Origin: Chitinolyticbacter albus
GTDB lineage: Bacteria > Pseudomonadota > Gammaproteobacteria > Burkholderiales > Chitinibacteraceae
NCBI RefSeq assembly: GCF_024437655.1
Contig: NZ_JANBVF010000005.1
Coordinates: 1 to 64,000, forward strand
Length of the DNA stretch: 64,000 nucleotides
Direction of reading: 5' to 3'
This document shows, in pieces, positions 3,857-16,821 of this stretch; position 1 is the first letter of the stretch, and each line of letters begins with the position of its first letter. The translations under genes were made by a program, and so were the position numbers. Under the pieces are notes generated by a model. The model made no database searches and was not told the DNA's origin. It saw only the letters and a list, made by a program, of their open reading frames with translations.

Positions 3857-5860
3857 TTACTTGGTATTGTCGATCACGACCTGGCCATTGAACTTCACCT
3901 GGCCGCGGAACATGTAGTCGACGCACTGCTTGTAGTCACCGGTGTTGGCGAGGCTGAACGGCATTTGGTAGTCGACCAGCTGGCAAGCCCACGATACGCC
4001 GCCCGGATTGTTGGCGTTGTAGCCCCAGTTCTTATCCAGATACGCCTTGGTGGCAGCGGCCGAGCCCGGCTGGAAGCCCTTCATCGACGCGCAACCGAGC
4101 TGTTCACTCGCCGGGATGGTCACGCCCATCTCGCGGGCGAACTCGCGATACGCGGCGATGCGGTTCAGCACTTGCTGCTTCTCGGAGCCGCCGCCGCACT
4201 CGATGCCGCCGTTGATGATGTGCACGGTGGCGCCGAAGCCCGGGCTCATGTTGTTGGCCTGATCGACCGCGTTCGGCACCCAGGTGCCATCAACGACCCA
4301 GGTCATCGGCGGCTTGGGCGATTGCGGGTAGACGGCGAACCAGATGGCCGAGGCGAAGTTCAGCCAGGTATCGGCGACGCGGCCCGGGTTATCCAGCAGC
4401 ACGTTGGCATCGCCGTACAGCGACTTGCTGAACTGACCGTAGTTGTAGTTCCACGACAGCTGCTTGGAACCGCGGCCGAAGTAGTCGATGAACTGACCCG
4501 AGGCGTTCTGCGCGCACGGGTAGAAGATCGAGAAGATCGAGCTGCCGGCACCGCGGAAGCAGTCCTGATACGCGCCGCTCGCCGAGCCTTCGGTCATGCC
4601 CGATTCGCGCAGATACCACAGACCCTGCTTGTACGACGGAATCGCGGCGTTCTGATCCATCGTTGCCAGTACCGGGTTGTTCTGCGCCGGGTAGGTGCGG
4701 GCGGTGGCCGGGGTCAGCGCCGGCCAGTTGGCACCGGTTTCCTGGACAAAGTGGGCGAACGACGTCGCCAGAAGCTTGCGGCAGATGGCATCCGAATCGC
4801 GACCGTCGCTGTAGGTCGTGCAGTACGCCGGGAACTTGGCGACGCCGCGCAGGAAGTTGGTATAGGTGTAGGCGACGTTGCGCACCGGGAAGAGCGAGTC
4901 GAACCTGGCCTCGTTCATCACGGCTTCAATGCGCTTGACGTTGGCCGGATTGGCGGCGCGGCCCGGCACGACGGCGTTGACTTCGCTGTCCGGCAACACG
5001 GCCAGCGCAGCGCGGATCCGCGCGATCGCGGCCGCATCGGTACCGGCCTGCGACGCCAGCGCGTTCTCGGCAGCGGTGAATTGTGCGTCGGTCGGGTAGC
5101 CGGCCGGGGCGGCGATGAAGGTCACCTGCGGCTTGTAGCTGGCGACCGGGCCGGGGGTCGGCGTCGGCACCGCCGGAGTCGGCGACACGGTGGGCTTGGG
5201 AGTCGGCGTGGCCGTTACCGGCGTCGGCGTCGGGGTATTCACGACCGGCGTCGGCGTGGCGGGCTTGGGGGTCGGCGTTGCGGTCACCGGTGTTGGTGTG
5301 GCTGGAGTGCCGCCGCAGGCGCCGATGTCCTTCCAGACGCCCCATGCGCCCGATTGCGCCGGGTTGTCGTTGTTGGTCCACCACTGGGCTTCGTAGTTGC
5401 GGCCGTTATAGGTCACGCGCTGGCCGCCGGTGTAGACGGTGCCGGCCACCCAGGTCGGGTAGCAGGCAGTGGTCGCCGGGGTCGGCGTGGCAACGACAGG
5501 AGTCGGTGTCGCTGCAACCGGGGTTGGCGTCGCGGGGCGTGGTGTCGGGGTGGCGGTGGCCGGGGTTGGCGTAGCCGGGACAGGAGTGGCAGTCGGCGGC
5601 GTACCGGTGCTGGTGCCGAGCGACTTCCACAACGTCGGCGTGGCCGCCGGGTTCCAGTTGGCGCCGACGTAGGCGGTATGGGTGACCAGCGCCTCGTAAT
5701 CGATGCCGTTGTACGTGACCTTGGTACCGGCGGCGTAAGTGGTGCCTTCCTGCCACGCGACATAGGCGTGGGCCAGTGAGGCGGGCAGTACGACCGGGCC
5801 GAGCGTGCCGAATGCAATCAGGCACGCCCCGGCAAGCTTGCGCATGCGCAGGGTGTTCAT
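3857..5860 (-). CDS. Secreted GH19 chitinase with two CBM5/12 chitin-binding modules
   Basis: A 667-residue secreted endochitinase. Order: signal peptide 1-32 (cleavage probably after LAHA); CBM5/12 module 33-82 (AWQEG, YNGIDYEAL, LWKSLG); Thr/Pro linker 83-131; second CBM5/12 133-182 (TYNGRNYEAQWWT, Cys at both ends); second Thr/Pro linker 183-240; GH19 catalytic domain from about 245 to the end. The proposed acid Glu is E374 in HFVQETG. The family block FGRGSKQLSWNYNYG spans about 461-475, and GFGATVHIINGGIECG follows. GH19 enzymes invert the anomeric configuration while cutting beta-1,4-GlcNAc chains. The start at 5860 has AAGGA seven bases upstream; an in-frame ATG at 5845 is a weaker alternative. 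It lies downstream of, and is related at its N-terminus to, the multi-CBM gene at 6184-8217. Confidence 0.95.
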   Translation of the reverse strand: MNTLRMRKLAGACLIAFGTLGPVVLPASLAHAYVAWQEGTTYAAGTKVTYNGIDYEALVTHTAYVGANWNPAATPTLWKSLGTSTGTPPTATPVPATPTPATATPTPRPATPTPVAATPTPVVATPTPATTACYPTWVAGTVYTGGQRVTYNGRNYEAQWWTNNDNPAQSGAWGVWKDIGACGGTPATPTPVTATPTPKPATPTPVVNTPTPTPVTATPTPKPTVSPTPAVPTPTPGPVASYKPQVTFIAAPAGYPTDAQFTAAENALASQAGTDAAAIARIRAALAVLPDSEVNAVVPGRAANPANVKRIEAVMNEARFDSLFPVRNVAYTYTNFLRGVAKFPAYCTTYSDGRDSDAICRKLLATSFAHFVQETGANWPALTPATARTYPAQNNPVLATMDQNAAIPSYKQGLWYLRESGMTEGSASGAYQDCFRGAGSSIFSIFYPCAQNASGQFIDYFGRGSKQLSWNYNYGQFSKSLYGDANVLLDNPGRVADTWLNFASAIWFAVYPQSPKPPMTWVVDGTWVPNAVDQANNMSPGFGATVHIINGGIECGGGSEKQQVLNRIAAYREFAREMGVTIPASEQLGCASMKGFQPGSAAATKAYLDKNWGYNANNPGGVSWACQLVDYQMPFSLANTGDYKQCVDYMFRGQVKFNGQVVIDNTK
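5150..5600. repeat. Thr/Pro linker-coding direct repeats inside the chitinase gene
   Basis: Two tracts, about 5150-5300 and 5470-5600, consist of short imperfect repeats (plus-strand units like GGCGTCGGCGTGGC) that encode ATPTP, PVTATPTP and related linker units on the minus strand. They separate the CBMs from each other and from the catalytic domain. Such tracts can change length by replication slippage or recombination without breaking the frame when the change is a multiple of three bases. Confidence 0.7.
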
Positions 5861-6183
5861 CGCTCCATCCTTCTTTTATATGGTTTTAATGCGCGGCTTC
5901 CGTGCGGGATATGCCGCGCGCGGGATTATCATAACGCAGCGTTGTAAGAAAAAAACGGGCACTACAAAGTCGCGACGATGATGGGCGCGCGCGGTAACGA
6001 AGCTATGCGCGCCCATGCAAGCAAAATCGCGGGGCTGGTCTTGTTCAGGTCAGGCAATAGGGCCTATTCATACCGTTTGTCGTTGACGATCGGTTGATGT
6101 TTGCCGCTGCCAATGAAAACGGCGCCTGTGAGGGCGCCGTACATACGCCGGCGGCGATGCTGCCTGCCGCCGGATCCTGGGGA
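5861..6183. other. 323-bp intergenic region between the multi-CBM gene and the chitinase gene
   Basis: No gene is visible. The region holds the terminator of the upstream multi-CBM gene (6115-6140) and, nearer 5861-5960, an AT-richer stretch that should contain the chitinase promoter and leader, with AAGGA before the start codon. I could not find a -35/-10 pair that I would defend. Because a terminator separates the genes, the chitinase is probably transcribed from its own promoter. Confidence 0.5.
6115..6140 (-). terminator. Intrinsic terminator of the multi-CBM gene
   Basis: An 8-bp stem, ACGGCGCC/GGCGCCGT with a six-base loop, lies 43 bases after the stop codon of the gene at 6184-8217. 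On the minus strand it is followed by TTTTC. Its stem resembles the terminator at 3811-3835, so the two related genes also share similar 3' ends. Confidence 0.75.
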
Positions 6184-8217
6184 CTATCCCCGGCCAGGCG
6201 CCAATGGTGGGCGTGCCGGTTGATAGCGGTAGGCCGCGCTTGATACGCCGGCTGTGCGCGTGGCTTGTTGCTGGCGGGCACTGCTGGCCACTGGGGGCAT
6301 CTGGGTCGGCTTGAATTGCGTCGGCGTCTGGGTGGGTATGAACTGTGTAGGCGTTGGCAGCTGCGGGCAAGACGCCAATGGGCCGGCGACGACTTCCCAG
6401 AGTGCTGGATCGAGCGTCACCGTTCCGTTGGCATTCAGAACAGGCTCATTGTCCGGACTGGAAAGGTGTGCCTGTTTAGCGCCGAACAAGCCATATGCAG
6501 TCGAGGTCCACTGCGGCAAGGGAGTGACGAAAAAGCTGCCGGTTCGTGGAAACACCACCGTATTGACTGAATACGCCTGATTGGCCTGCCAGCGTGATGG
6601 CTGCGTTTGTGGCGGGCACGGCAAGGGGTTGTTGCGCACCGGAACCGGATTCACTGTTACCCGCGCCGGGGTCGGCGTCACGCCGCCGAAGAAACCCAGC
6701 TGGCTCTCGCTGACCACGCATTGCGCATAGTTGGCGTTGCACACCTTGAGCCGGTAGATGCCGCTGGGCAAGTTTGTCGAGCCGTAACCGCCGTAGCTGC
6801 TGCGGTTGTTGAGGATGTCGTCCTGTACCCACAACCGGGTGCTGGAGTACACGGCGCTACCGTTATCCACCAGTTCCAGGTGCCAGCTGGTCGGTGCCAG
6901 GCCCAGCACCTGCGCATCCACGCTCCAGTTGATCTTGGCCAGATTGGCGTCGCCCATGCTGCCCGACAGCGTCCAGCTGATGGCGCGGTCCGGGCCGGCG
7001 GGTAGCGGTTGCGGCACGGTCGGCGCCGGCGGCGGGGTGTAGTCCGGCGGCACGGGTGTTGGTGTGAGCATGCCGATAAAGCCGCGCTCGTTGCTGGCAT
7101 AGCACGGCGCATCGGGCTGGCTGTCGCGGCAGACCAGTACGCGATAGCCGCCGGGGGCCGAGTTCTGCAGCTCGCTCGCCACGGCGATCCCACCGTAGTA
7201 ATAGGCGCCCACCTCGCCCGCGCGCTGTACGACCGGATCACTGAGCGGGAACAGTCGGTTACCTGGGCCCTGCAGCGCCCAATAGGTGGGCACGAAGGCG
7301 GTGTCGGCTTCCTTGATGGTGAAGGCGATGTCGGCCACGGTCATGCCCATGGCGTTGAACGCCCATTCAATCGGCGCGGCGGAGATCGGTGGCAGCGGCG
7401 TTGGCAGCGGTGTTGCCACTGGGGTAGGTAGCGGTGTCGGTAGCGGCAAGTACAAGGTTGGCGTGACGACCCGCGTAGGCGTAGGTGTCGCAGTACTGAT
7501 CGGCCCGGTGGTGCAAGGTCCGATATGGCGCCACGGCCCCCATGGATTCTTGAGATCTGGCACCTCGCCCTGCACCCACCATTTGGCTTCGTACAGTTCA
7601 CCCAGATGGCACACACGTAGCCCGCTGGTGTAAACCTGACTAGCCGACCAGGCGGGCGCCACGGCTGTTCCGGGTGGTGTCGGCGTGGGGCTGGGCGTCA
7701 AGGGCGATGGCTGCGGCGTCACTGGCGTGGGCGTGACGGTCCAGCACACGGCGGGCGCCGGTTGCGGGGCCCAATAGCTGCGATTGCTCAGGGCCGTTCC
7801 GGCGGGCACCGGCTGCACTGCAAGGTAGTTGGAACGGCTGGGGCAACTGGTGTTGGGGTTGAGCACCGTATAGACGCAGGCACCGCTGGAGTAGCTGGCA
7901 CTGGCAGACCAGGCGGCATAGGCGCTGGTGCAGCCGGTCGGCGTCGGGCTCGGCGTGCTGCCGGCGGTGGGGCCCAGATCTCGCCACAGTGTGGGCGTGG
8001 CGGCCGGATTCCAGTTGGCGCCGACGTAAGCGGTGTGACTGACCAGTGCTTCGTAGTCACGTGCGTTGAACGTGACCTTGCTGCCGGCGGAGTAGCTGGT
8101 GCCTTCCTGCCACGCCGTATAGGCGTGAGCCATGGCGGCAGGTAATACGACCGGGCCGAGCGTGCCGAACAACAGCGCGCACGCCCCGGCGAGCTTGCGC
8201 AAGCCTGGGTTTTTCAT
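6184..8217 (-). CDS. Secreted multi-module chitin-binding protein without a recognisable catalytic domain
   Basis: A 677-residue exported protein. Signal peptide 1-32. A CBM5/12 module at 33-82 is nearly identical to that of the neighbouring chitinase. A divergent, Cys-containing CBM-like segment spans about 96-158. A third CBM5/12 spans 188-235 (YEAKWWVQGE, WRHIGPC). Two related modules of unknown type follow at about 281-384 and 411-513; each ends in a G-YR-L/V-L/K-VC block and a GF-I/F-G motif. A last CBM-like segment lies at about 541-617 (RWQANQAYSVNTVVF). Pro/Thr linkers separate the units, and the C-terminus is a PTQ-rich tail. I see no GH18, GH19, GH20 or LPMO signature. The start at 8217 is preferred over 8229 because GGAAGAG lies just before it. 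A substrate-binding or adhesive role on chitin is inferred. Confidence 0.85.
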   Translation of the reverse strand: MKNPGLRKLAGACALLFGTLGPVVLPAAMAHAYTAWQEGTSYSAGSKVTFNARDYEALVSHTAYVGANWNPAATPTLWRDLGPTAGSTPSPTPTGCTSAYAAWSASASYSSGACVYTVLNPNTSCPSRSNYLAVQPVPAGTALSNRSYWAPQPAPAVCWTVTPTPVTPQPSPLTPSPTPTPPGTAVAPAWSASQVYTSGLRVCHLGELYEAKWWVQGEVPDLKNPWGPWRHIGPCTTGPISTATPTPTRVVTPTLYLPLPTPLPTPVATPLPTPLPPISAAPIEWAFNAMGMTVADIAFTIKEADTAFVPTYWALQGPGNRLFPLSDPVVQRAGEVGAYYYGGIAVASELQNSAPGGYRVLVCRDSQPDAPCYASNERGFIGMLTPTPVPPDYTPPPAPTVPQPLPAGPDRAISWTLSGSMGDANLAKINWSVDAQVLGLAPTSWHLELVDNGSAVYSSTRLWVQDDILNNRSSYGGYGSTNLPSGIYRLKVCNANYAQCVVSESQLGFFGGVTPTPARVTVNPVPVRNNPLPCPPQTQPSRWQANQAYSVNTVVFPRTGSFFVTPLPQWTSTAYGLFGAKQAHLSSPDNEPVLNANGTVTLDPALWEVVAGPLASCPQLPTPTQFIPTQTPTQFKPTQMPPVASSARQQQATRTAGVSSAAYRYQPARPPLAPGRG

Positions 8218-10520: not shown

Positions 10521-11294
10521 TCATCGGCTGGCGCTTTTGCCGACTAGCGCTTGAACCTCTTCCAGCGCGAGCATGCGCCATTGCCCCTTGTCCAACTCGC
10601 CCAGGCGCAGCGCGCCGATGGCGACGCGGACCAGTCTGAGCGTGGCGATTTCGTGCGCGGCCAGCAGGCGCCGGATGTGGCGATTGCGTCCTTCATCGAG
10701 CACGATCTCCAGCCAGCTGTTCTTCTCGCCCATACGCAGCAACTGGACCGCGCGGGCGGCGAGCCGCTCGCCATCGACCATGACTTCGCCGCGCAACCGG
10801 GTCAGCAAGGCGTCGTCTGCGGGCCGGTCGATCTGCACGTGATAGGTCTTGGGCACGTGGCTCGCCGGGTCGGTCAGCCGCGCCGCCCAGCCGGTGTCGT
10901 TGCTGAAGAGAAGCAGTCCCTCGCTCGCCTTGTCGAGCCGACCGACCGGACCTATCCACGGCAGATCCGCCCCTGCGAGGCACTGATAGACCGTGTCACG
11001 CCCCCGGTCGTCCTGCGCCGTGGTCACCAATCCGCGCGGCTTGTTCAACATCAGATAGACAAAGCGCTGCGCCGCGACGGCCTCACCGTCGACAGCGAAG
11101 CGATCCTGCGCCAGATCGACCCAGGCGATCGGATCGCGTATCAGCTTGCCATTCACCGCAACCCGCCCGGCCCGCACCAGCGCCTCTGCCTGGGTGCGCG
11201 AACAGACGCCCAGCTTGGACAACGCGCGCGCCAGCCCGGTGCGTGAGCCTGGCGCAGCGGTTTTGGCGGTTCTGGACGGTGATGGTGGAGGCAT
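10521..11294 (-). CDS. RsuA/RluB/RluE-family 23S/16S rRNA pseudouridine synthase
   Basis: A 257-residue pseudouridine synthase with an N-terminal S4 RNA-binding domain (residues about 22-70, [30 protein letters not shown]). The catalytic RsuA-type domain carries the signature [12 protein letters not shown] and [20 protein letters not shown] with the catalytic Asp. The C-terminal block [16 protein letters not shown] is typical of the RluB/RluE/RluF subfamily. The N-terminal 18 residues are basic and Ser/Pro-rich. The target uridine cannot be assigned from sequence. It is convergent with maf. Confidence 0.88.
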
Positions 11295-11349
11295 AAAGCT
11301 TTCAATAAACGGCGTCTACGGCGCCGAGCGGCCCATTTTTGTAAGCGAT

Positions 11350-11366
11350 GTGACGAAAATCGTCAC
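11350..11366. promoter_or_regulatory. Perfect 7-bp dyad (GTGACGA-aaa-TCGTCAC)
   Basis: A perfect inverted repeat, GTGACGA and TCGTCAC separated by AAA, lies 56 bases upstream of the RsuA-type synthase start, between that gene and the tRNA-Thr terminator. It has no T run on either strand, so it does not look like a terminator. A regulator-binding site is possible but unproven. Confidence 0.3.
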
Positions 11367-11465
11367 TCTGGCCGGACTGGCGAGGGGCGCCTCGCGTGAT
11401 TCGTCCTGGCAGGACGGTTCCGACCGTCGGGGACATCCGGTGTATGCGTGCCCCCAGCCCAAGCA

Positions 11466-11488
11466 AAAGCCCGCCAGAGGCGGGCTTT
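11466..11488 (-). terminator. Intrinsic terminator after tRNA-Thr
   Basis: A perfect 10-bp stem (AAAGCCCGCC/GGCGGGCTTT, loop of three) begins eleven bases beyond the CCA end of the tRNA gene and ends in TTTTG on the minus strand. Confidence 0.85.
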
Positions 11489-11498
11489 GCGGTGTTCC

Positions 11499-11574
<76 letters not shown>

Positions 11575-11584
11575 GGAAGGCGCG

Positions 11585-11613
11585 ATTATAGGGCAAACCC
11601 GGACACGTTCCAA
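11585..11613 (-). promoter_or_regulatory. Sigma-70-type promoter of tRNA-Thr
   Basis: On the minus strand TTGGAA (11608-11613) and a perfect TATAAT (11585-11590) are separated by 17 bases. The TATAAT lies eleven bases before the mature tRNA 5' end, an expected distance for a tRNA promoter. Confidence 0.65.
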
Positions 11614-11690
11614 GCGATCAGCCTTGCTCTACCCGACGGGTTTTGCCGTTTATCTCCCCTATCCCACCGGTGGCAGGGGGCTTTTGGAGG

Positions 11691-11706
11691 TGGCACAGCA
11701 CTTGCT
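11691..11706 (+). promoter_or_regulatory. Sigma-54 (-24/-12) promoter of the short-pilin operon
   Basis: The sequence TGGCACAGCACTTGCT matches the sigma-54 consensus, with GG (11692-11693) and GC (11704-11705) exactly ten bases apart. Transcription would start near 11717, about 43 bases before the first pilin's ATG. Many type IV pilin genes use sigma-54 with the activator PilR, which fits the downstream gene. No PilR site was identified. Confidence 0.85.
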
Positions 11707-11759
11707 TATGATCCACCACGCCCCCCGGGGAGTAGACAACGCTACAGGAGCGCTCTGAG

Positions 11760-11939
11760 ATGAAAAAGATGCAAAAGGGTTTCACCCTGATCGAACTGAT
11801 GATCGTAGTCGCCATCATCGGTATTCTGGCTGCCATTGCCATCCCACAGTTCAACGAATACCGCGCGCGGACTAACGACACTACTGCGCAAGCTGATGCA
11901 AAGAATGCCATGACTGTAATGACTGCGGCTCAAAAGTAA
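11760..11939 (+). CDS. Very short type IV pilin-like protein 1 (59 aa)
   Basis: A complete 59-residue class III-signal prepilin. The seven-residue leader MKKMQKG ends in Gly, followed by the mature N-terminal Phe and the conserved Glu at mature position 5 ([19 protein letters not shown]). After the helix, [22 protein letters not shown] and a short amphipathic tail end the protein; there is no globular beta-sheet domain. The mature form is only 52 residues, even shorter than the roughly 61-residue PilA of Geobacter. AGGAG lies about ten bases before the ATG, and a sigma-54 promoter lies upstream. Processing by a prepilin peptidase and assembly into a filament are expected, but the peptidase is not in the window. 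It is nearly identical to the protein at 12479-12664. Confidence 0.9.
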
Positions 11940-11961: not shown

Positions 11962-12393
11962 ATGAACAAAATTGCATATGTATTCGCGGGTGTCATTGGC
12001 ATGGCTGCTTCTTTCGCAGGAGCGACTGCAATTCCAGCTGGTGGCCAAATCACTGTTGTGGCATGCCCAGTGCTGGGCGAGCCGGTCACTTTGAATTTCT
12101 CGAAGAATGTCAGCGCTGCTTATTCGTGCGATGACACTACTAGCAACATGCGTGTGGCGACCTGCCATTCCGGCGGTAGCCGGAAGCCGCTTCCAGTAGT
12201 CTGCGCAAGCGCCGACGACGGCGCTGGTGGGGTGACTTGGAATGCGCCGGGTTGCACCACAAATGGTGCCACAGTGACTATCAGCAACTATCGCGGGTAT
12301 CGCTCTAATAATCAGGGTGGTGTGCTGGGTGTTTATGACCTTGGCGGCGCTTGCTCTGCAGCAACAGCGGACTCTGTTTTGACTGCGCAGTAA
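11962..12393 (+). CDS. Secreted six-cysteine protein between the two short pilins; candidate separate globular pilin partner
   Basis: A 143-residue protein of unknown family. It has a Sec signal peptide ([21 protein letters not shown]) and a mature part with six cysteines (in VACPV, YSCDD, ATCHS, VVCAS, PGCTT and GACSA), which could form three disulfides in the periplasm or outside the cell. The composition is rich in Gly, Ser, Thr and Asn, like a beta-rich extracellular domain. It begins 22 bases after the first short pilin, with GGAG before the ATG at 11962; an upstream TTG start at 11947 lacks support. In Geobacter the short PilA-N is followed by a separate PilA-C/Spc gene. This gene has the same position and could play the same role, but I see no sequence similarity that proves it. 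Confidence 0.8.
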
Positions 12394-12402
12394 GTTTGCT
12401 GA

Positions 12403-12438
12403 CAAAGGCGTTGTTGCCGGCAGGCGCAACGCCTTTTT
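12403..12438 (+). terminator. Intrinsic terminator between the first pilin pair and the second pilin
   Basis: AAGGCGTTG pairs with CAACGCCTT, and five T residues follow. It would end or attenuate the sigma-54 transcript after the six-cysteine gene, making the first pilin and its partner the main product and lowering expression of the genes beyond. Confidence 0.8.
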
Positions 12439-12478: not shown

Positions 12479-12664
12479 ATGCAGCTCTGTGCCCAGAGAG
12501 GATTTACGTTGATCGAGCTGATGATTGTTGTTGCTATAATTGGCATTTTGGCGGCAATTGCGATCCCGCAGTTCAGTGAATATCGTGCACGCACCAATGA
12601 CACCACAGCGCAGGCTGATGCAAGAAATGCAATGGTTATATTGCGCGCGGCTGAGCGAAATTGA
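12479..12664 (+). CDS. Very short type IV pilin-like protein 2 (61 aa)
   Basis: A 61-residue prepilin that is a clear paralogue of the protein at 11760-11939. The leader is MQLCAQRG, followed by [20 protein letters not shown], identical to the first pilin. The [14 protein letters not shown] stretch is also identical; only the last dozen residues differ ([13 protein letters not shown]). It has a strong ribosome-binding site (GGAGG, five bases before the ATG). It lies downstream of a terminator and 43 bases before the ABC permease gene, so it is probably co-expressed with the ABC genes. It may be a minor subunit or an alternative major subunit. Confidence 0.88.
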
Positions 12665-12707: not shown

Positions 12708-13517
12708 ATGATGGGTGTCCCAGAATATACGGTGGGATTGCGTTTGTGTATTCGGATTGGCTTTCTCAAAATCCTCGCAGGATTTTGTTTGGGCTTGGCA
12801 GGCGCGGCATGGCTTGCGGGAGAGTTCAGCGGCCGACAGCCTGCAACAGTTGCGTTGGATGTTGGTTTATCATTTGCACACTTCGCCATTCTTTTGCTGG
12901 GAATTGTTTTTGCTCAGGAGCTCTTCGCTAAAGAGTTTGAGCGTAAGTATTCGTTGATTACGCTTTCTTACCCCATTTCGCGGCGACGGTTTGTGCTGGC
13001 GCGTTTCGCAGCGGCTTACACCCTCTTGATCGGTTCATGTCTTGCAATGGCGTTAAGCTTGGTCATCGCAACCATATTCGTCAGCCAGAGTTACGAACAA
13101 GCGCGCGTCGTGGACTTAGGGTTGCCCTATGTCTGGACGTGGTGCTTGATCGCCTTAGAAGCTTTTTTTGTGCTTGCACTTGCTACGTTGTTTGCGTGCG
13201 TCGCGCGTTCACAGGCCTTTGTACTGTTAAGTACCGTAGGTTTATTTGTAGTTGCTCGTTCCTTTTCTGCGATGTTGTCATTAATCGAAATGGATCGAAC
13301 TCTCGTTGAGCAGCCTGGGCACTATCAAGTGGGTCTTGAGACAATTGGCTTTCTTCTTCCTGATTTGAGTGCCATTGATATCCGAGCGGCCTCTCTGTAC
13401 GCCAGTATGACTTTTGTACCAGAGAACTGGTGGTTGTCTTCATTGTCCGTTCTTTTCTATGCACTGATGCTGCTCAGCATTGCGATTTTTATCGTAGATA
13501 GAAAGGATTTGATTTGA
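12708..13517 (+). CDS. ABC-2-type transporter permease (PilI-like by context)
   Basis: A 269-residue membrane protein with about six transmembrane segments. There are hydrophobic stretches at about 17-36, 53-72, 105-127, 145-165, 170-190 and 240-262, and the cytoplasmic loop LFAKEFERKYSLITLSYPISRRRFVLARF is typical of ABC-2 permeases. It would form the membrane channel for the ATPase at 14367-15263. The ATG at 12708 or the adjacent one at 12711 could be used. By context it resembles PilI of the Myxococcus PilGHI system, which is needed for type IV pilus assembly; this is inference from gene order, not a family match. Codon and base use are AT-richer than in the flanking genes. Confidence 0.8.
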   Translation: MMGVPEYTVGLRLCIRIGFLKILAGFCLGLAGAAWLAGEFSGRQPATVALDVGLSFAHFAILLLGIVFAQELFAKEFERKYSLITLSYPISRRRFVLARFAAAYTLLIGSCLAMALSLVIATIFVSQSYEQARVVDLGLPYVWTWCLIALEAFFVLALATLFACVARSQAFVLLSTVGLFVVARSFSAMLSLIEMDRTLVEQPGHYQVGLETIGFLLPDLSAIDIRAASLYASMTFVPENWWLSSLSVLFYALMLLSIAIFIVDRKDLI

Positions 13518-14356
13518 GTCGGATGGCGAAATACACTCCTTTGCTGCTTGCCTTGGGATGCTTTTTTATATTCGTATTTACTTCCATCTTAGAGAAGCGC
13601 CAGCAGCCCCACAAGGCCGAGAATATCGTGCTAGAGCGCGTGGTCCTTTCTCCCGTGCTGCAAATATTGCTGAACGGCGGGGATCCTTTTCTTGCAGCCA
13701 ATCTTGAATTGATGCGTGTATCTTCGACATGGAGCGGCGATATGGCCGCTGCTGGTGTGGATGCACGTTTCAGGTTAAGAGCCTACAAACTCGTTTCTGA
13801 AATGAATCCGTGCCACGAGGATAGTTATTACCAAGCTAATGCTTTGCTGGCGTGGGAAGGTGGTGCGGCTGATGCAAATACAATCTTGACGCGCGCAACG
13901 AAGTGTAGGTTTTGGGACGAATTCCCTCCCTTCTTTTTGGGCTTTAATAGGCTTTATTTCTTTGATGATTCCATTGGGGCGTCCAAAGCTTTCAGGCAGG
14001 CAGCGAACCGATCGATAGGCAATAAATCGGTCTTTAAGAGGTTGGCGATTATGTCTATTGTCGAGTCTGCGAGGAGTGAAGCTGATGCACTTTCTATGTT
14101 AAAGAAAGAAGTGGAAAAATCTCGAGACCCTGCGTTGCGTAAAATGTTGGAAAAACGAGTTGCCCGTATTGAAGGATTGTTGTTTTTACGGGATGCGCAG
14201 AAACAATATGAGCAGAAATTCAAGAGTGGTTTGACGAGCCCCGAGCAACTTATATTTGCTGGGATTGTATCGAGTTTTCCTTCGGATCCTACAGGAGTCG
14301 GGTATGAGTTCCTGAACGGAAAATTTCAGCTGAAAACACCGCAATATTCTCAATGA
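13514..14356 (+). CDS. Membrane-anchored helical protein of the ABC/pilin cluster (PilG-like by context)
   Basis: A 280-residue protein with one N-terminal transmembrane anchor (residues about 8-26, TPLLLALGCFFIFVFTSIL). It continues as a soluble, mostly helical domain with TPR-like spacing: around 90-160, CHEDSYYQANALLAWEGGAA and then an aromatic-rich stretch WDEFPPFFLGFNRLYFFD. I do not recognise a named family. The start is TTG at 13514, with AAGGA six bases upstream, overlapping the permease stop; an ATG at 13523 is possible. It lies between permease and ATPase genes and ends ten bases before the latter, so an accessory role in the same ABC complex is likely. The periplasmic or cytoplasmic side is not settled. 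Confidence 0.75.
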   Translation: MSRMAKYTPLLLALGCFFIFVFTSILEKRQQPHKAENIVLERVVLSPVLQILLNGGDPFLAANLELMRVSSTWSGDMAAAGVDARFRLRAYKLVSEMNPCHEDSYYQANALLAWEGGAADANTILTRATKCRFWDEFPPFFLGFNRLYFFDDSIGASKAFRQAANRSIGNKSVFKRLAIMSIVESARSEADALSMLKKEVEKSRDPALRKMLEKRVARIEGLLFLRDAQKQYEQKFKSGLTSPEQLIFAGIVSSFPSDPTGVGYEFLNGKFQLKTPQYSQ

Positions 14357-14366
14357 GTTTCTAATA

Positions 14367-15263
14367 ATGTTCCCCGCACTGTCGTTCAATAAGGTTAGTA
14401 AGACGTTCAAAGTGCGTGCCAAGTCTGTGGAGGCGCTTAGTGATATTACATTCGATATCCACGAGGGGGAGATCTTTGGACTTGTCGGCCCCAATGGAGC
14501 GGGGAAATCGACGACCATAAAGATTGCTTTGGGAATGCTTGGCGGCTATACAGGGGACGTCCGCATCTATGGAAATTCAGCTGAAGACAGTAATGCAAGG
14601 CGGCATGTGTCTTATGTTCCAGAAAGCCCGTCACTTTATGAGCAGTTTACGCCAAATGAGTTGCTAAAAACAGCATTAGAGATTCATAAAGTAGACAAGG
14701 CAAGCCATGCTCGATTGCGTAATTTGTGGTTGGAGCGACTTTCTCTTGAGGCTGTTGCGTCGAAGCGGTTACGTACCCTTTCAAAGGGCACAGTTCAACG
14801 CGTTGCGCTTGCGCATGCGCTAATTGTTTCCCCGAAATTGCTTGTGCTAGATGAGCCCCTCTCGGGGCTTGATCCTGTCGGGCGCAAGGATGTTATTCAG
14901 ATACTGCGAGATTACAAGCAATCTGGAGGGTCGATGCTGCTAACCTCGCATGTACTGTATGACGTCGAAGAACTAGCAGATAAGTTTGGATTTATTCAGG
15001 ATGGAGTGCTAGAAATTGCCAAAAATCCTAATTCATTATTGATGGATGTAGCGGCACCGCTATTTAGCGTAAGGTACCATTCTCTGGAGAATTTAACCCC
15101 CGATGGGGTGGAGCTGCGAGCAGGCCTTTATGAAATGACTGTGCCCCAAGATGAGTTGATTAATTTCCTTGGGTGGCTCAATGAGAGGCAGGGTTTACTA
15201 ATTAGCATTAAGCCATTTGTTTCATTGGAGTCCGCATTCTTGGCGAAGGTGCGTCAAGCATAA
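14367..15263 (+). CDS. ABC transporter ATP-binding protein (PilH-like by context)
   Basis: A 298-residue ATPase with a complete nucleotide-binding domain: Walker A GPNGAGKST (41-49), the Q-loop region VSYVPESPSLYEQFT (about 81-95), signature LSKGTVQRV (138-146; the usual LSGGQ is changed to LSKGT), Walker B LLVLDEP (158-164), D-loop SGLD and H-loop His in LLTSH (about 192). A C-terminal extension of about 90 residues follows, as in many ABC-2 ATPases. It would power the permease at 12708-13517. Together with the short pilins and the membrane-anchored protein it makes a self-contained unit. The cargo is not predictable from sequence; pilin or pilin-modifying material is a guess. Confidence 0.9.
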   Translation: MFPALSFNKVSKTFKVRAKSVEALSDITFDIHEGEIFGLVGPNGAGKSTTIKIALGMLGGYTGDVRIYGNSAEDSNARRHVSYVPESPSLYEQFTPNELLKTALEIHKVDKASHARLRNLWLERLSLEAVASKRLRTLSKGTVQRVALAHALIVSPKLLVLDEPLSGLDPVGRKDVIQILRDYKQSGGSMLLTSHVLYDVEELADKFGFIQDGVLEIAKNPNSLLMDVAAPLFSVRYHSLENLTPDGVELRAGLYEMTVPQDELINFLGWLNERQGLLISIKPFVSLESAFLAKVRQA

Positions 15264-15354
15264 TTTTGATACGGTTGATAGGTAAGTGCCAAGCCTTAAT
15301 TTGTAGTTAAAAATCAGTTAAATACGATCAAATTATACGCAAGATAAATTTCAT

Positions 15355-15383
15355 AAAAAACGCCCCAAAGAGGGGCGTTTTTT
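15355..15383. terminator. Bidirectional terminator between the ABC ATPase gene and cysN
   Basis: CGCCCC and GGGGCG enclose AAAGA, flanked by six A and six T residues. It works for both convergent transcripts, and the minus-strand copy overlaps the cysN stop codon (15382-15384). Confidence 0.9.
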
Positions 15384-16821
15384 ATGAGTGCTGTTTTCTC
15401 TTTAGTTGAAATTCCCAGTCTGGGAAATATTGACGTATAACCGAATTGAGTTCACGTTCAAGCTGACGTAGCGACATCGGATCGTCGTCCTTCAAAGCGC
15501 TTAGATGTGCTGTAGCTGTTAGAGCAGTGATCATCCCCGCCCCTGCCGTCGCGTTGCTCAGCCTATCGATCACGATGAAGCTGCCGGTGCCGCGGCACTG
15601 GGTGTAGGGGTCGAACACCACAGGGGCGTTGACTTCAACGGTGACGAGGGCAATTTCATTGAGGCCGAGCTGGCTGGCCTCGGTTTGCGCCATGGTGTTC
15701 ACGTCGATGCGGTGGGCGATCTGGCTGATGCGGCCGAACACGCTCTTACCGGCGAGCTTGAACGCATATTCCTTGCCGACCTGCAGCGGTGCTTCGTTCA
15801 TCCACACCACATGCGCGTCGAACGCCTGGGCCACGCTGGGCTGAGGGTCCTCGGCGCGTACGATCAGGTCGCCGCGGCTGATGTCGATCTCGTCTTCCAG
15901 CGTCAGCGTAATGGCCTGGCCGGCGAAGGCCGTGGCTTGTTCGCCTTCGTAGGTGACGATGGCGACAACCTTGGAGCGCTTGCCGGATGGCAGGGCGACG
16001 ATTTCTTCGCCGGGGGCGATCTGGCCGGCGGCGACGGTGCCACAGAAACCGCGGAAATCGAGGTTGGGGCGGTTCACGTACTGCACCGGCAGGCGGAAGG
16101 CGTCGAGCTGTGCGCGCCGGCCGATTTCGACGGTTTCCAACAGCCGCATCAGCGTGCCGCCGTCGTACCACGGCGTCTTGGCCGAGGCGTTGACGACGTT
16201 ATCGCCCTTCAGCGCCGAGATCGGCACGAAGCGGATATCCGGAATGTTCAACGAACCGGCGAAGTCCAGGTAGGCGGCCTTGATCTCGTTGAAGCGTTCT
16301 TCGGAGAAATCGACCAGATCCATCTTGTTCACGGCGACGACAACGTGCTGGATACCCAGCAGGCTGACGATGTAGCTGTGGCGGCGGGTCTGGGTCTGCA
16401 CGCCGTAGCGGGCATCGATCAGGATCACCGCCAGGTCGCAGGTCGACGCGCCGGTGGCCATGTTACGGGTGTACTGCTCGTGGCCCGGGCAGTCGGCGAT
16501 GATGAACTTGCGCTTGTCGGTGCTGAAGTAGCGATAGGCGACGTCGATGGTGATGCCCTGCTCGCGTTCGGCCTGCAGGCCGTCGACCAGCAGCGCCAGA
16601 TCGATTTCGTCCTCGGTGGTGTTGTACTTCTGGCTGTCCTTCTGGATCGCGGCCAACTGGTCTTCGAAGATCAGCTTGGAATCGTGCAGCAGGCGGCCGA
16701 TCAGCGTTGATTTGCCGTCGTCGACATTGCCGCAGGTGATGAAGCGCAGCAGATCCTTGTTCTCGTGCTGCTTGAGGTAAGCCAGGATATCGTCGGCGAT
16801 CAGGTCGGATTGGTGGGACAT
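15382..16821 (-). CDS. cysN: Sulfate adenylyltransferase subunit 1 (GTPase)
   Basis: A 479-residue GTPase subunit of ATP sulfurylase. It couples GTP hydrolysis to adenosine-5'-phosphosulfate synthesis by CysD in assimilatory sulfate reduction. It shows the translational-GTPase motifs [19 protein letters not shown] (G1, about 31-49), [17 protein letters not shown] (G3), NKMDLVDF (G4) and [11 protein letters not shown], with EF-Tu-like domains 2 and 3 behind. The length is normal for CysN without a fused CysC kinase. The start at ATG 16821 (MSHQSDLI) is chosen; the 25 upstream codons to 16896 are Arg-rich and non-homologous. It follows cysD by 86 bp. Confidence 0.95.

Follow-up and report, generated by a model that had tools for sequence, protein, structure and literature searches.

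Organization of the locus

The locus lies within the window, the whole 64-kb stretch of DNA that was analysed. Genes are ordered RluA, RlmH, Maf, RluB, tRNA-Thr, followed by a module of pilin and transporter genes. The tRNA-Thr(cgt) gene, located with ARAGORN, is at 11499–11574 on the minus strand; the promoter and the genes of the module are on the plus strand. A sigma-54 (−24/−12) promoter element, TGGCAC-N5-TTGCT (TGGCACAGCACTTGCT), occupies positions 11691–11706 and was identified from the sequence, pattern counts and comparison of homologues. The sigma-54 consensus used consists of GG and GC dinucleotides 10 bases apart in the context TGGCAY-N5-TTGCW. Both the spacing and the context are present in the element, with GG at 11692–11693, GC at 11704–11705 and exactly 10 bases between the two. 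With the C of GC taken as −12, transcription is predicted to start at 11717, which leaves 43 bases to the ATG (11760). An AGGAG ribosome-binding site is seen in the sequence at 11746–11750. A preliminary description of this DNA had proposed such an element, with GG and GC ten bases apart and 43 bases from the start site to the ATG, and all its coordinates are borne out.

Short type IV pilin 1 (11760–11939) is a protein of 59 aa with a prepilin cleavage motif. The only Pfam match is the prepilin N-terminal motif (N_methyl). The first three PDB matches are Geobacter PilA-N (Geopilin domain 1) chains. As in split pilins, the class III signal is present and the C-terminal head is absent. Aromatic residues are F1, F24 and Y27, that is, 3 of the 52 residues of the mature protein, which is below the aromatic content of about 9% or more that characterizes conductive e-pilins. 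The gene of a secreted partner (11962–12393; 143 aa, with an N-terminal signal-peptide-like segment), for which profiles suggest a candidate PilA-C-like half, begins 22 bp after pilin 1. A predicted intrinsic terminator, found by hairpin scan at 12404–12438, is positioned behind the partner gene.

Short pilin 2 (12479–12664; 61 aa; Pfam) is positioned behind this terminator and has neither a promoter nor a partner of its own; the best sigma-54 match in the 130 bp scanned upstream is 6/11. Pilin 2 is 85% identical to pilin 1 over 54 residues, with most synonymous sites changed, and the arrangement of the two pilins recurs in genome G017 (L156). The remaining genes of the module code for an ABC-2 type permease of 269 aa in PilI-like position (12708–13517; Pfam, homologues), a PilG-like accessory protein of 280 aa with the motif GDxxLAAN (13514–14356; sequence, profile) and an ABC transporter ATPase of 298 aa in PilH-like position (14367–15263; Pfam/NCBIfam). 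An ATPase, an ABC-2 permease and an accessory gene beside a pilin gene make up the PilGHI arrangement. No family is assigned to the partner or the PilG-like protein in Pfam and NCBIfam. A strong bidirectional terminator of 17 pairs (15350–15388; hairpin scan) separates the module from the convergent cysN.

Promoter and regulators

Within the window, TGGCACNNNNNTTGCW (TGGCACN5TTGCW) is matched without mismatch at 11691–11706 only; with up to two mismatches allowed, the 36 matches in all are no more than the 39.7 that chance would give. TGGCAYNNNNNTTGCW (TGGCAYN5TTGCW) occurs 31 times in the 3.9 Mb genome versus three times for a reversed control pattern, so that matches of the sigma-54 type in this genome (G000) are mostly real. 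The simulated probability of a perfect 11/11 site within 130 bp upstream is 0.0003, and that of a site of at least 10/11 is 0.0039.

Short-pilin genes were gathered from named contigs and from genomes of relatives. A site of at least 10/11 is present in the 130 bp upstream of 23 of 27 short-pilin genes in 17 loci, versus 2 of 188 control ORFs (200 aa or longer) from these loci. The four short-pilin genes that lack a site are pilin 2 of the window, the corresponding gene of L156, one in L159 and the orphan L168. Twelve further loci were fetched around PilG-like genes; L202 repeats L035, and L209–L213 contain full-length pilins only. These loci add six short pilins, with a site in L206, L207 and L208 and none in L203–L205. 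The total is 26 of 33 short-pilin genes with a site of at least 10/11, counts that are not independent because several of the source genomes are related. Chance origin of the element at 11691–11706 is ruled out by the pattern counts and by its conservation in front of homologous genes; judged from sequence, the sigma-54 promoter is real.

L203–L205 are three modules of one genus in another family, with short pilin, partner and transporter and no sigma-54 site; their regulation must therefore differ.

Among full-length pilin genes of L039–L114, 59 of 92 have a site of at least 10/11 within 250 bp upstream. In the full-length-pilA loci of the same family the first pilA has such a site in 11 of 11 cases, so the promoter type at 11691–11706 is an ordinary one for pilA. 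The element, its spacing and its position are those of sigma-54/PilR-dependent pilA promoters, and we know of no difference from these at the sequence level.

Two RpoN genes (PF04552) and 11 strong matches to sigma-54 activators (PF00158) are found in genome G000. The second rpoN (G000:C48; L034, L007) and a sigma-54 activator gene of its own are about 1 kb apart. In the genome of the window a response regulator of 454 aa, encoded immediately after a sensor-kinase-like ORF (L004), is termed PilR-like, which is our reading of matches that in NCBIfam are sub-threshold and of AtoC-, ZraR- and NtrC-type only. A PilR site, which the preliminary description had suggested might lie at 11600–11690, could not be demonstrated there: de novo search for 6-mers and dyads in 23 upstream regions gave no convincing motif. 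The dyad ATTG-N8-CAAT is present in 4 of the 23 regions; the highest count among 100 shuffled sets is 3. The short pilA of G. sulfurreducens has an RpoN promoter mapped by 5′-RACE and is PilR-regulated (PMC2725144). The element at 11691–11706 is probably the promoter of a two-piece major pilin that depends on RpoN and probably on PilR, both dependences being predicted ones.

Secreted partner and terminators

The partner gene starts 10–85 bp after the short pilin in 20 of 20 loci measured. No terminator of note is found between the two genes in any of the 20, where one weak hairpin (−3.0 kcal/mol) was seen. This absence suggests that pilin and partner are co-transcribed. Behind the partner, a hairpin of −10 kcal/mol or stronger followed by a T-run is present in 18 of 20 loci; in a coarser rescan a terminator is present after the partner in 17 of 18 loci versus 51 of 540 shuffles. 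Such a pattern would be expected of two proteins made 1:1 from genes that precede weakly expressed accessory ones.

A profile of 18 partners ranked PilA-C first among PDB chains (E 0.12) and again fifth (E 4). With a trimmed profile of 14 partners PilA-C was again first (E 0.019). The latter profile matches full-length pilins of zetaproteobacteria in their C-terminal parts (E 6.3e-5), which in turn match PilA-C (E 2.8e-4). The partner of the window is a diverged subtype. It matches the sister subtype at E 8.7e-6 over 21 columns and zetaproteobacterial full-length pilins weakly, and no PDB chain was found with this subtype alone. When 13,322 ORFs were searched with a profile of 17 sequences, the matches outside the training set were a few additional partners and zetaproteobacterial pilins (E 0.07–4), with unrelated ORFs intermixed; the window's own partner was returned at E 9.7. 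AlphaFold2 gave a poor model of this partner from a 4-row alignment (pLDDT 51), and a Foldseek search of the PDB with this model, with nothing at E ≤ 0.001, is taken as uninformative. Homology of the partner to PilA-C is, on these profile matches, suggestive, not proven. Pilin 1 appears to be short since its C-terminal half is a separate downstream gene, a point missed in the preliminary description.

Distribution of the module

The order of the module is conserved: short pilin, secreted partner, terminator, ABC-2 permease, PilG-like protein (about 280 aa) and ABC ATPase. In the variant of the window a second short pilin is inserted between the terminator and the permease. The gene order downstream of the short pilin is conserved across classes. 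Homologues of the permease are present in 11 of 43 genomes of the family, and short pilins in the same 11 genomes (37 of the 43 examined). A profile of the PilG-like protein detects it in 38 of 398 genomes sampled over the phylum; the match is strong (E < 1e-79) in 8, including that of the window.

In a tree of 18 PilG-like proteins, those of G000, G017, Thauera and two zetaproteobacteria are grouped with support 1.0. Three species of genus g7 are in three separate places, a scatter that fits horizontal exchange.

In genome G002 the orphan short pilin L168 is without partner, transporter or promoter; the same genome also has a complete module. L209–L213, found with the PilG-like profile, contain zetaproteobacterial full-length pilins with 119–181 residues from the cleavage-site glycine, located beside ABC transporter genes, and some of these pilins have a perfect sigma-54 site. 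This arrangement is possibly the one-piece ancestor of the split module.

Exchange with full-length pilA

The congener G016 (L171) has the same genes and tRNA as the window, followed by two full-length pilA genes. With blastn, window positions 10570–11575 align to L171 positions 5341–6306, and DNA homology breaks off where the tRNA gene has its 5′ end. The neighbour on the right of the module, cysN, does not occur in the portion of L171 that was fetched. When a module locus is paired with a full-length-pilA locus from the same genus, flanking genes are in common in 10 of 13 pairs, in five genera; in 3 of these 10 the common genes are on both sides. No common flanks are found in either of the two g6 pairs or in the one g8 pair, where the module and full-length pilA are at different places. 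In L163/L174, L163/L179, L165/L181 and L164/L180 the pilA genes have the opposite orientation to the module, and in the first three of these pairs they are 1.4–3.5 kb from nrdG. The module occupies the place of the full-length pilA kept by close relatives in five genera.

PF00114 is matched in 5 of 11 module genomes versus 29 of 32 others (Fisher p = 0.004). Four of the five proteins in module genomes are of TM2/zinc-ribbon type, without prepilin signal, and are not pilins; the fifth (G025) looks like a PilE/ComP minor pilin, all in our reading. This tally was rejected as a count of canonical pilins in module genomes. Recounting as 1 of 11 gives p = 1.5e-6, with the matches of the 29 non-module genomes not all inspected singly. 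The three non-module genomes without PF00114 have full-length pilins of other types. On this evidence module genomes are essentially without canonical PilA.

The genome of the window has PilB and PilQ above the cut-off and 18 other pilin-like genes, none of them PF00114. Those of the 18 with a family are of GspG, GspH, GspI, GspJ, PilV, ComP and general prepilin-peptidase-dependent types. Upstream sites of at least 10/11 are absent in all of the 12 among these 18 that were covered by the scan, and no exact sigma-54 site of the whole genome is near any of the 18.

Comparison with known systems

In Geobacter pilA is located within a pilBTCSR operon; the pilin of the module is not so placed. Geobacter PilA-N/PilA-C (GSU1496/GSU1497; PDB 6vk9, 9egp) and the module have in common a pilin of about 60 residues, a separate partner gene and an RpoN promoter. 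PilA-N chains are the best PDB matches of pilin 1, and PilA-C is first for the partner profile, at weak E-values. The module differs in its highly diverged partner and in the few aromatic residues of its pilin. Its transporter genes come directly afterwards, in many cases with another short pilin, and it fills a slot that elsewhere holds full-length pilA. A polysaccharide/ABC cluster after the Geobacter pilin, described in PMC3495685, is a further likeness.

An ABC ATPase, a permease and an accessory protein are coded near the pilin in Myxococcus xanthus as well. PilG/H/I of this organism are described as essential for pilin translocation in PMC3724824. The likeness of the module to PilG/H/I is in gene content and position, and M. 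xanthus PilA is, unlike the pilin of the module, a long one-piece protein. The gene order in M. xanthus is pilA-pilG-pilH-pilI. To our knowledge, every pilin allele of Pseudomonas aeruginosa is one-piece, whereas in the present case the alternation is between one-piece pilins and a two-gene pilin that comes with an ABC transporter. Alike is the swapping of pilins with their own accessory genes in one slot beside tRNA-Thr; in P. aeruginosa pilin alleles lie between pilB and tRNA-Thr with the accessory genes tfpO/tfpY/tfpZ, as given in PMC2841157.

Among literature on two-piece pilins outside Geobacter only the survey of truncated pilins PMC5174107 came up, which also places short pilins in further taxa, among them Candidatus Accumulibacter and Neisseriaceae. 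The parts of it consulted do not mention a transporter, slot exchange or, beyond Desulfuromonadales, a partner.

Alternative explanations

The short pilins may be decayed remnants of full-length pilins, with a promoter left from an ancestral pilA. Consistent with this are their length of only 59–61 aa, pilin 2 without promoter and the orphan of a relative, L168, without site or partner. However, all 27 genes are of constant length, 53–56 residues counted from the cleavage-site glycine (under a preset upper limit of 60); the promoter is conserved, as is the downstream gene order across classes; and dN/dS of pilin 1 versus Thauera is about 0.1 (0.158/1.51), a value from one pair near saturation, the ratio being undefined (saturated) in 3 of 4 pairs. 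These features rule out decay of pilin 1, and as an account of the short pilins decay is the least probable of those weighed. The gene of pilin 1, being conserved within a module, is judged not decayed. The preliminary description had held that the short pilins are regulated like genuine pilins and are functional rather than decayed. For pilin 1 this is supported by a conserved site, the same promoter type on full-length pilA, RpoN and PilR-like genes and a conserved module. It does not extend to pilin 2, since that gene is behind a terminator and has no site better than 6/11 within 130 bp. Almost as improbable is a role of the short pilins as minor pilins or pseudopilins in another machine, the major pilin being unrecognized elsewhere in the genome. 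The genome does have the 18 further pilin-like genes, along with several machines of PilB- and PilQ-like type, but none of the 18 is PF00114 or near an exact sigma-54 site, and the module fills the pilA slot of congeners.

More weight, though still with low probability, is given to a short pilin that assembles alone in the style of Geobacter e-pilins. The partner would then be just a chaperone, or a surface protein unrelated to the pilin, and the substrate of the ABC transporter would be a polysaccharide. In Geobacter, GSU1497 is needed for stable PilA according to PMC5174107, a polysaccharide cluster with an ABC ATPase (GSU1498–1508) follows pilA (PMC3495685) and filaments of PilA-N only are defended in PMC9207759; glycan-type genes are, in our reading, near several modules. 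Against this, the partner is coupled to the pilin ahead of the terminator like a stoichiometric subunit, its profile resembles the C-terminal halves of full-length pilins, and pilin 1 has few aromatic residues (3/52).

Probable explanation

The likely explanation is an RpoN-controlled split (PilA-N/PilA-C-like) major pilin, swapped in place for canonical pilA. It is based on the promoter site, which is conserved, on the order of the genes and the predicted terminator, on the exchange at one slot and on the lack of canonical PilA. An activator of PilR type would open the RpoN promoter at 11691–11706, and a single transcript would cover the short pilin and the Sec-exported partner 22 bp further on. 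The short pilin would provide the N-terminal helix, assembled into the filament like PilA-N, and the partner the PilA-C-like C-terminal head of the pilin, the two forming a heterodimer. The terminator behind the partner would give equal transcripts of pilin and partner and less read-through to pilin 2 and the PilI-, PilG- and PilH-like genes, whose ABC transporter may aid export or assembly of the pilin. The whole cassette would have replaced full-length pilA, in place, in the lineage of the window and in several relatives.

Significance

Whether the short pilin of Geobacter is functional alone or dependent on PilA-C is disputed. Independent two-piece modules outside Geobacter, with sister species that have a one-piece pilin in the same place, make this dispute testable; module carriers include at least one named isolate, Thauera propionica. 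The balance tips slightly towards one-piece PilA and the two-piece pilin with its transporter being alleles of one slot, with a cassette that moves horizontally with its own sigma-54 promoter among a beta- and zetaproteobacterial set. If so, the whole pilus surface would be swapped in one recombination step. The modules also illustrate how splitting and swapping of a pilin can come about, with relevance to surface variation and to pilus-specific phages.
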